Of a stretch of 64,000 nucleotides of DNA, positions 22,270 to 24,429 are shown in pieces. The translations under genes were made by a program, and so were the position numbers. A model generated the notes under the pieces. That model was not told where the DNA came from and did no database searches. It saw only the letters and a list, made by a program, of their open reading frames with translations. Position 1 is the stretch's first letter. Every line of letters begins with the position of its first letter. This stretch comes from Salinirubrum litoreum (GTDB lineage: Archaea > Halobacteriota > Halobacteria > Halobacteriales > Haloferacaceae), in assembly GCF_020567425.1 (NCBI RefSeq), contig NZ_JAJCVJ010000001.1:930001-994000 (forward strand), written 5' to 3'.

Positions 22270-24429
22270 ATGCGGAGACGCACCCTACTGAAGTCCGTCG
22301 CCGGCGTCCCCCTCGCGGGTGGACTCGCCGCCAGCGCGACACGACGCATCGTCTCGGCCGCAGAGCGCATCCCGGCGCTCGCGTTCGACTCCACCGCCTC
22401 GTTGCTCGCCGCGGATCTGACGCCACTCACCGACGATTCGGTGGCCGTCGTCTGGGCCGAACCGACCGCCTTCGTCGTGGACGAGGACGGCGACGGTGAC
22501 GCCGTCCCGTACCCCGACGGGACCGACATCCCGCTGGTCGCACAGGACGGGAACGTCGTCGGCTTCGGCGCACCCATCGTCCAGAACGACACCGACTTCG
22601 AGCGCGGCAACGAGGAGTTCGTCCTGAACGTCCTCGACGCGACCGCCGGCTCCGGCACCGTGCTGTGGGACGAGAGCCACTTCCAGTTCTACGACCTCGA
22701 CGCCCACACCGCCTTCGAGGGCTACGCCGAGGCGAACGGGTACGACGTGCGACCGACCGACGACATCGTCGCCGATCTGTCGAGCGCCGACACGCTGGTC
22801 GTCACCTCGCCGTCTGCCGCCTTCTCGTCGGCCGAACTCGACGCCGTCGCGTCGTTCGTCGCGGACGGCGGAACTTTGCTCCTGTTCGACCAGTCCGACT
22901 TCCGGAACTTCGACGCGACCGACAACCTGAACGCCATCGCCGACCGCCTCGATCTGGCCTTCCGGTTCAACGACGACCAGGTGTTAGACGAGTCGAACAA
23001 CGCCGGTATCGGCTTCGTCCCGACGACCGAGAACCTCAACACCCGGTTCGACTACTTCCACGACCGCGAGGGACTCGGCTTCGAGATCGATCCCGCGCAG
23101 ACCTACACGGTCGACGTCGTGGACGTGACCGACGGCGACACCGTGGACGTGCGCTTCGCGGGCGGCAACGAGGAGACGATCCGACTGCTCGGCATCGACA
23201 CGCCCGAAGTCGCCGCCGCCTCACAGTTCGAGCGGCCCGAGGAGTGGGAGGGCATCGAGTCCCTCGACTACCTCGGCACACAGGGTGACGTCGCCAGCGA
23301 GTTCGCGCGGGGTGAACTCGCAGACGAGACGCTGGACGTCGAGTTCGACAGCAACGAACCGGTACGGGATCCCTTCGGTCGCCTGCTGGCGTACGTCTCC
23401 TACGACGCCGACGGGACCGGGAGTCGAGACACACTCTACAACGAGGAGGTGATCCGCGCCGGTCGCGCGCGACTGTACGACTCCTCGTTCGCCCGGCACG
23501 ACCAGTTCTTCGACGTGGAGATCGACGCCCGCGAATCGGGCCGAGGGCTGTGGGCCGAGAGCGCCCCCGAGAACACGCGCGAGATTCGCAACGGACCGGT
23601 CGAGTCGGTCTTCGCACCGACGCCCGCACCGGTCGTCTCCGCGGCCGGGACGCTCGACGCTCGGCGCGTCCCGCTCTCGGCAGAGCCGTCGGCGAGCGTC
23701 GAGGGCGGTTCGGCCGGATCCCGCGACTCGGACGGCGACCTGCCGTTCGTCGGCGTCGACGGACAGGTCCGGACTGCAGTGGTCGGCTCCCTGCTGATCG
23801 ACGAGAGTTACGAGCAGGCCGAGGACTACCCGGTCGACACCTCGGAGTTCGGCAACTTCGCGTTCCTGACGAACCTGATCGACAAGCTCTCCGACCGTAC
23901 CGGCGACGTGCTGATCGACGGCGGCCACGGTCAGTTCGGCGTGGACTACGGCCTGTCGGCCGAAGACGCGGCCTACTACCTCCGGTATCTGGAGGGTGTC
24001 GGGATCGGCTTCGAGGGCGTCAACACGATCACCCGCGAGCGACTCGACCGGGGTCGCGCACTGCTCGTCACCGCGCCGGTCTCGGCGTACACCGAGGCCG
24101 AACTCGACGCGCTCCGGCAGTTCCGCGACGACGGCGGCGCTGTCGTCCTGCTGGCCGGTGACGCGCCGAGCGCGGCACGCGAGAACCTGAACGCGGTCGC
24201 CGACGCGCTGTGTTCGGACCTCCGAGTCGGTGCCGGTGCGGTCGTGGACACCGAGAACAACGTGAACGACGACCCGGCGGTGCCGACGACTGCGAACGTC
24301 GACGACTGGTTCCGCCTGTTCGACGCCTACACCGGCGAGACGACTTACAAGCGGACACGCGGCGGGCCGGGGCGACCGGGCTGTGTTGGTCGGCGGACTG
24401 CGGCCGGAAACGGGGAGTCGGGCGAGTAA
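22270..24429 (+). CDS. Exported thermonuclease (SNase) flanked by two GATase-like domains
   Basis: A 719-residue protein with a twin-arginine signal MRRRTLLKSVAGVPLAGG and no lipobox. Residues about 130-260 form a DUF4350/GATase1-like alpha/beta domain (DTLVVTSPSAAFSSAELDAV, then DGGTLLLFDQSDF). Residues about 275-430 are a staphylococcal-nuclease domain with DVTDGDTVDV, IRLLGIDTPEV and RDPFGRLLAYV, which carry the Asp, Arg and Arg needed for Ca-dependent phosphodiester cleavage. Residues about 500-690 repeat the first domain type (ALLVTAPVSAYTEAELDALR, then DGGAVVLLAGD). It should degrade extracellular DNA or RNA. The flanking domains lack an evident catalytic Cys and may bind a ligand or surface. 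Confidence 0.82.
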   Translation: MRRRTLLKSVAGVPLAGGLAASATRRIVSAAERIPALAFDSTASLLAADLTPLTDDSVAVVWAEPTAFVVDEDGDGDAVPYPDGTDIPLVAQDGNVVGFGAPIVQNDTDFERGNEEFVLNVLDATAGSGTVLWDESHFQFYDLDAHTAFEGYAEANGYDVRPTDDIVADLSSADTLVVTSPSAAFSSAELDAVASFVADGGTLLLFDQSDFRNFDATDNLNAIADRLDLAFRFNDDQVLDESNNAGIGFVPTTENLNTRFDYFHDREGLGFEIDPAQTYTVDVVDVTDGDTVDVRFAGGNEETIRLLGIDTPEVAAASQFERPEEWEGIESLDYLGTQGDVASEFARGELADETLDVEFDSNEPVRDPFGRLLAYVSYDADGTGSRDTLYNEEVIRAGRARLYDSSFARHDQFFDVEIDARESGRGLWAESAPENTREIRNGPVESVFAPTPAPVVSAAGTLDARRVPLSAEPSASVEGGSAGSRDSDGDLPFVGVDGQVRTAVVGSLLIDESYEQAEDYPVDTSEFGNFAFLTNLIDKLSDRTGDVLIDGGHGQFGVDYGLSAEDAAYYLRYLEGVGIGFEGVNTITRERLDRGRALLVTAPVSAYTEAELDALRQFRDDGGAVVLLAGDAPSAARENLNAVADALCSDLRVGAGAVVDTENNVNDDPAVPTTANVDDWFRLFDAYTGETTYKRTRGGPGRPGCVGRRTAAGNGESGE

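Follow-up and report, generated by a model that had tools for sequence, protein, structure and literature searches.

A predicted exported haloarchaeal nuclease with an SNase domain between two homologous GIFT domains, and relatives with apparent GIFT-in-GIFT insertions

The locus and its protein

The window is the whole 64,000-nucleotide stretch of Salinirubrum litoreum DNA that was analysed, taken from a 4.06 Mb genome whose relatives are Halobacteria. At 22270..24429 it carries a coding sequence for 719 amino acids on the plus strand, on which all features described below also lie. The frame is open from 22264, where a GTG offers an in-frame alternative to the ATG at 22270, but this ATG agrees with the homologues, which begin at an equivalent MRRR. 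A 149-aa ORF, presumably glyoxalase/epimerase-like, precedes the gene on the same strand, and a 644-aa ORF that we take to be AMP-ligase-like follows downstream. The protein consists of a Tat-type leader, an N-terminal GIFT domain (residues 33–265), an SNase domain (276–434), a C-terminal GIFT domain (455–690) and a 29-residue Gly/Arg tail.

Conservation was assessed in two alignments. A1 has 27 rows, comprising the window protein and 26 of 30 homologous loci (L001 is the window gene itself; left out were the paralogue L002, L021, whose match contains stops, L030, whose frame breaks late, and L031). A2 has 50 rows, comprising the window protein and, after a score filter, 49 of the 53 proteins among loci L032–L103 in which an SNase domain lies between N and C GIFT copies (N-SNase-C).

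The leader (22270..22362), identified from the alignment and the predicted model, begins MRRRTLLK, and the twin-arginine motif MRRRTLL expected of a Tat substrate is thus present at the level of sequence. An Arg pair occurs within the first six residues in 23 of the 27 A1 rows, and in the remaining four (L014, L026, L027 and L029) the reference begins at a later codon. Neither the window protein nor any other of the 27 rows has a Cys ahead of the first domain, so that a lipobox Cys is lacking, and residues 1–30 are disordered in the model (pLDDT < 50). These features agree with the proposal of an earlier note on this DNA that the protein is exported. At the other end is the short Gly/Arg-rich tail (24340..24426): the last 30 residues have a net charge of +3, against -38, -24 and -25 for the N GIFT, SNase and C GIFT domains, and relatives have an LTD, a PKD or a Lys/Gly- or Asn/Gly-rich tail in this position. 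The tail motif RGGPGRPGC, with its single Cys, is common to the window protein, L003 and L004 and replaces the LTD of other relatives.

The SNase domain (23095..23571) matches PF00565 with an E-value of 5.5e-12 and 46.5 bits against a cut-off of 21, and its predicted structure superposes on the OB-fold nuclease structure 2f0t with a Z-score of 19.4 (131 residues, rmsd 1.8). The earlier note had stated that the nuclease keeps its Asp and Arg residues, and this holds throughout the family: Asp290 in the DGDT motif (23131..23142), R305 together with D310 and E313 of the DTPE motif (23182..23208), and R371 (23380..23382) are invariant in both A1 (27/27) and A2 (50/50), with T311 present in 25 of 27 and 47 of 50 rows. 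We assume for these catalytic-type residues the roles of their counterparts in Staphylococcus aureus nuclease. Staphylococcal nuclease (thermonuclease) has the same fold and catalytic-type residues, but the window protein bears a GIFT domain on either side of its SNase and has a more extended acidic loop after DTPE (ERPEEWEGI; 23209..23262). In this loop E321, E325, E327 and G328 are invariant in A1 (27/27), and it is the site of GIFT insertion in 11 relatives. The best NCBIfam match of the SNase part is the calcium-activated nuclease EcnA (NF047969; E = 3.4e-27), yet at 95.3 bits it falls below the cut-off of 180.

The two GIFT flanks

The N-terminal flank (22366..23064) is recognized by the Pfam families DUF4350, ABC_transp_aux and IFT52_GIFT and scores 371 bits against an N-domain profile that was built from A1 and thus includes the window protein. 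It contains a DEDGDGD loop (22480..22500) in which D73 is conserved in 27, D71 in 26, D77 in 24 and D75 in 11 of the 27 A1 rows, and which may be a Ca2+ site. The C-terminal flank (23632..24339), which carries a DGGHGQF motif, was assigned from Pfam, profiles and comparison with the N copy. Matches of the flanks exceed the curated Pfam cut-offs for IFT52_GIFT (40.7 against 27.2), DUF4350 (61.6 against 30.4) and ABC_transp_aux (46.3 against 34.7).

The motifs that the earlier note had seen in both flanks are indeed paired (SPSAAFSSAELDA with APVSAYTEAELDA, DGGTLLLF with DGGAVVLLA, and NLNAIAD with NLNAVAD), and the similarity reaches far past them. The two domains can be aligned over their whole length, with 78 of 242 positions identical in BLASTP (32%, E = 3e-20), a local alignment that scores 187, where 1000 shuffles average 40 (s.d. 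6.8, maximum 75), and a profile–profile probability of 99.9 (E = 9e-35, 200 columns). They can thus be regarded as copies of one domain, as had been proposed. Structure prediction, set beforehand as a check on the flanks, gave an AlphaFold2 model (mean pLDDT 88.9, pTM 0.76, 50 sequences) in which the two flanks show one and the same succession of strands and helices, so that the predicted folds do not differ. Each copy has conserved polar residues of its own, D134 and H137 in N and Q555 in C (27/27 A1 rows). Foldseek matches the window model to the IMPa metallopeptidase (E = 1.6e-4) and weakly to the N-terminal domain of IFT52 (E = 2.5e-3, TM-score over the query 0.12). The list of PDB matches for the model is filled by SNase entries, so the absence of other folds from that list is uninformative.

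The earlier description of the flanks as GATase-like stands at the level of fold but not as amidotransferase: the N copy lacks the Cys of class I glutamine amidotransferases, the single Cys present in the C copy recurs, among the A1 rows, only in L003 and L004, and the Pfam names are of GIFT type. The flanks are GIFT-type domains, of the IFT52/GldG/OST48 kind, without a conserved amidotransferase cysteine. They have Pfam matches and apparently the fold in common with IFT52, GldG, OST48/Wbp1 and DUF4350 proteins, none of which, to our knowledge, is fused to a nuclease. Cilia, protein glycosylation and gliding are connected through GIFT domains, for which we know of no firmly established ligand. 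A role in sugar binding has been proposed (PMC7226087), and work on PelA suggests sugar binding for a structurally similar domain (PMC12022489).

Layouts and GIFT insertions among relatives

Relatives are patchily distributed among genomes of the same family. Matches at E ≤ 1e-5 occur in 134 of 170 genomes, many to the SNase part only, and matches below 1e-50 in 42 of 170, with the genome of origin and forms lacking the N copy counted. A scan of genome contigs with the single protein detected no relative. Querying the contigs with the alignment returned 72 named loci (the best 80 of 85 matches), the titles of which are all haloarchaeal or of uncultured archaea of that kind. In this set the order N-SNase-C, with or without LTD, occurs at 53 loci, a few of them truncated or frame-broken (22 without LTD, 23 with one and 8 with two); the SNase domain is split by one GIFT domain at nine loci, by two at two and in broken frames at one; five loci lack the N copy, and two have other layouts. 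The proposed survey of domain order in homologues thus finds N-SNase-C to be widespread in Halobacteria. In A1, a C-terminal LTD is present in 13 of 27 rows. Seven of the 72 loci (again the best 80 of 85 matches) have a separate GIFT-only frame, which in the seventh, L103, is part of its broken frames; in the other six, all from Halorubrum (L062, L071, L072, L084, L091 and L097), it lies beside the GIFT-SNase-GIFT gene.

Across the phylum, a C-type profile at E = 1e-10 finds matches in 13 of 294 genomes. Of these, 12 belong to the same order and the outsider, G510, reaches only 43.7 bits, so that within the genomes sampled the strong form seems restricted to Halobacteria. Among the matches listed in viral contigs, those found lie around the SNase region (27–39% identity, and one short match at 58%) and none spans a GIFT domain; the C GIFT domain has no match in phage records. 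Public plasmid records label such proteins as thermonuclease family, PKD domain-containing or lamin tail domain-containing, and one Haladaptatus plasmid protein (L230) combines SNase and a C-type GIFT with four consecutive lamin tail domains.

The SNase domain holds one or two GIFT domains just past DTPE at 12 of the 72 loci (best 80 of 85 matches). In the 11 intact cases (L059, L060, L066, L067, L077, L079, L080, L082, L085, L086 and L100) SNase is interrupted right after RxLGxDT(P/A)E...EWEG(L/I) by one or two whole GIFT domains, after which the next SNase helix follows with its Arg. A predicted structure of the L080 protein is weak (pLDDT 71.8, pTM 0.37, nine rows). SNase structures align across the insert in this weak model (residues 256 to 657; Z about 8, rmsd 2.3–5), which is only suggestive of an SNase domain that folds around it. 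The inserted GIFT of the same low-confidence model superposes on residues 90–298 of IMPa with Z 13.1 and rmsd 3.2 across 182 residues, and on IFT52 with Z 8.1 across 131 residues.

A second insertion site lies within the GIFT domain itself. In family f4 the N profile matches in series, for example at 2–134, 4–135, 2–232, 135–232 and 136–233, followed by SNase and C GIFT domains, and at least 17 of 242 genomes of the class have such series. The ten analysed in detail break at N-profile positions of about 133–139, the loop before a helix at residues 166–172 of the window model, and can be read as GIFT domains nested three deep (L195–L200; L196 is frame-broken, and L197 and L198 have an extra insert in the inner copy) or two deep (L201–L204). 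A plasmid protein of Natronosalvus halobius (L208, WP_253438362.1) is also three deep. Its SNase and C GIFT domains are 85% and 79% identical to those of Halostagnicola larsenii L207, in which the N domain is uninterrupted. The outermost halves of the L208 series are 68% and 64% identical to the halves of that N domain, against 49% and 59% for the outer halves of L195, whereas its four inner halves are 65–71% identical to the inner halves of L195 and 38–51% to L207. Because the outer halves match L207 and the inner halves L195, with a small margin for the last half, a two-deep cassette appears to occupy in L208 a loop that is empty in L207. A further insert of more than 100 residues, Ig/PKD-like by eye, is present in or before the innermost GIFT of L197 (residues 345–520), L198 and L208 (residues 322–483).

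The same series could in principle be tandem half-domains rather than one GIFT inside another, a reading that we consider very improbable. The nesting is read from sequence, and when distances between first and second halves were compared in 8 of the 11 nested proteins (omitting L196 for its frame break and L197 and L198 for their extra insert), the nested pairing gave r = 0.847 and the next best 0.836, a narrow separation; the last half of L208 also prefers L207 over L195 only slightly. Against tandem halves, none of 2000 random pairings attains the nested value, and the first and last halves of L208 best match a single L207 N domain while its four inner halves best match L195 inner halves. 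The L207/L208 comparison is the better discriminator of the two. We tentatively propose, with slightly less than even confidence, that the N-type GIFT is a self-inserting module: one GIFT loop would repeatedly have taken up whole GIFT domains, pre-nested cassettes would have moved between proteins as units, and the SNase loop by DTPE would have been entered more than once. The window protein would then represent the ground plan of a family of released archaeal nucleases in which Russian-doll insertion extends or gates a recognition arm.

Recursive domain insertion is known from SI3 of cyanobacterial RNA polymerase, which reaches six levels (PMC13114784). The GIFT relatives have the same A1-B1-C-B2-A2 nesting by repeated insertion, but differ from SI3 in that members of a single GIFT family interrupt one another at one loop, up to three levels deep, and in that the proteins are predicted secreted nucleases. 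In listings of open-licence literature on DUF4350 with nuclease, on nested domains and on haloarchaeal nucleases, we did not find the layout described.

The origin of the two flanks was addressed with quick IQ-TREE phylogenies with SH-aLRT support. An unrooted tree was built from 84 GIFT domains of the window protein and 36 chosen loci. A branch with 100% support sets its 36 C copies apart from the 36 N copies, on whose side also lie nine inserted copies, two GIFT-only domains and one extra copy. Since this N/C split is fully supported across Halobacteria, the duplication or paired recruitment is old and not local to the window gene. In a second tree, of SNase plus C GIFT from 57 chosen rows, a 99% branch separates the GIFT-fused nucleases from five GIFT-less haloarchaeal SNases, four of which have a lipobox-like Cys and three an LTD. 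Forms lacking the N copy and forms with a split SNase both fall inside the fused group, with supported branches forcing at least three changes for each, and nested forms are found in two places. The position of SNase-C forms within the N-SNase-C tree favours repeated loss of the N copy.

Internal duplication is the favoured origin of the N/C pair on the sequence comparisons. GIFT/DUF4350 proteins without SNase, from ten genomes chosen for weak matches, score at most 50 bits against the N profile over about 65–115 positions, whereas the window's own C copy scores 78 bits over its whole length; by score, the C copy is thus nearer to the N profile than any of those proteins, which fits internal duplication. 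N-type GIFT-only proteins are closer still (226 bits for L205 and 175–237 bits for the Halorubrum frames), so the N copy could also come from a free-standing GIFT-only protein. The internal duplication suggested earlier is therefore upheld in that the flanks are homologous, but not as an event in this gene, and GIFT-only proteins of N type provide another possible source; the nuclease may have been inserted between two tandem copies, as was also suggested.

Possible function of the GIFT-flanked nuclease

Sequence and prediction establish the architecture, the intact active-site residues, a Tat-type leader without an anchor signal and an old, conserved layout. On sequence grounds the window protein is likely to be a released, Ca2+-dependent nuclease for extracellular DNA. 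As a fuller model, which we consider somewhat more likely than not, the SNase domain of an exported haloarchaeal nuclease cuts extracellular DNA or RNA while its two homologous GIFT domains hold the enzyme near its substrate, with copy number growing by insertion at two loops. The folded protein would leave the cell by Tat and be free or loosely bound, and SNase would cleave extracellular DNA or RNA with Ca2+, probably for phosphorus and nucleotides or for remodelling of extracellular DNA in biofilms. The GIFT domains would act as rigid recognition modules, for a glycan, the S-layer, the matrix or the polymer itself, that keep the nuclease near its substrate, and the C-terminal slot (LTD, PKD or Gly-rich tail) would contribute further affinity. 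Relatives appear to gain GIFT modules at two sites, a loop of the GIFT fold that precedes the 'xADLxxAD' helix and the SNase loop after DTPE; the added modules would extend the recognition arm and could gate the active site.

It is less likely, though a serious alternative, that the GIFT domains bind no ligand and are structural spacers or dimerization units that keep the nuclease stable at high salt. Both flanks have a strongly negative net charge (-38 and -25), as salt adaptation predicts, forms without the N copy exist (5 of the 72 loci among the best 80 of 85 matches), and the GIFT domain of IFT52 serves as an assembly part (PMC10191852). However, the conserved, domain-specific polar residues and the repeated rise in GIFT copy number both suggest more than padding. 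We think it improbable that the protein serves as a weapon or in defence, with its GIFT domains directing the released nuclease to the surface of rival archaea: although export, exchangeable outer modules and patchy distribution would suit such a role, no obvious immunity gene adjoins among the two neighbouring ORFs, and a folded nuclease would need an entry route into the target cell. Marginally less probable again is a bifunctional enzyme with catalytic, ThuA- or amidotransferase-like GIFT domains, in spite of the GATase-like fold and the fact that 7 of 27 members match ThuA (E as low as 4.1e-7), given that neither copy has a conserved Cys nucleophile and that GIFT domains are not known to be enzymatic.

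For the model of a released nuclease held near its substrate, we take HVO_1477 of Haloferax volcanii to be the nearest experimentally tested relative; the window protein is not HVO_1477 itself, which layout and lipobox rule out. The two are alike in being haloarchaeal and extracellular, or predicted to be so, and in having an SNase catalytic domain, and the C-terminal LTD of HVO_1477 recurs in the 13 LTD-bearing A1 rows. HVO_1477 is a 327-aa lipoprotein whose features as annotated in Table 5 of its report include no GIFT-type domain (PMC3929857), whereas the window protein lacks both lipobox and LTD. HVO_1477 itself is absent from our tree, where its type is represented by the GIFT-less outgroup. 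According to the same report, this SNase lipoprotein is required for growth of H. volcanii on DNA, and the medium contained no free nuclease (PMC3929857). Among the matches listed, one of 15 genomes of genus g9 has the full-length form, so the lack of free nuclease in H. volcanii is no argument against our model. The genome that carries the window also encodes an HVO_1477-like lipoprotein SNase with a lipobox (LLAGC) and an LTD (L002; on contig C4, at about 125 kb), which may be its main nuclease for extracellular DNA; given the presence of both proteins, a division of labour between surface and medium may exist.

Enzyme and domain families are known ones, and what looks new, as read from the sequences, is the domain architecture with its unusual recursive insertion; the self-nesting relatives are more surprising than the window protein. 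H. volcanii uses extracellular DNA as a phosphorus source, its tested nuclease, HVO_1477, is a putative surface lipoprotein, and free nuclease is reported to be lacking in haloarchaea (PMC3929857). A conserved nuclease that is predicted to be released, in many genera, renders this gap testable. As a secreted enzyme with one to several GIFT copies, it would offer a simple system for finding a GIFT ligand, and the nested relatives, whose insertion site is occupied in one of two related genera and vacant in the other, would form a natural series on the tolerance of a domain to being interrupted by another of its family.
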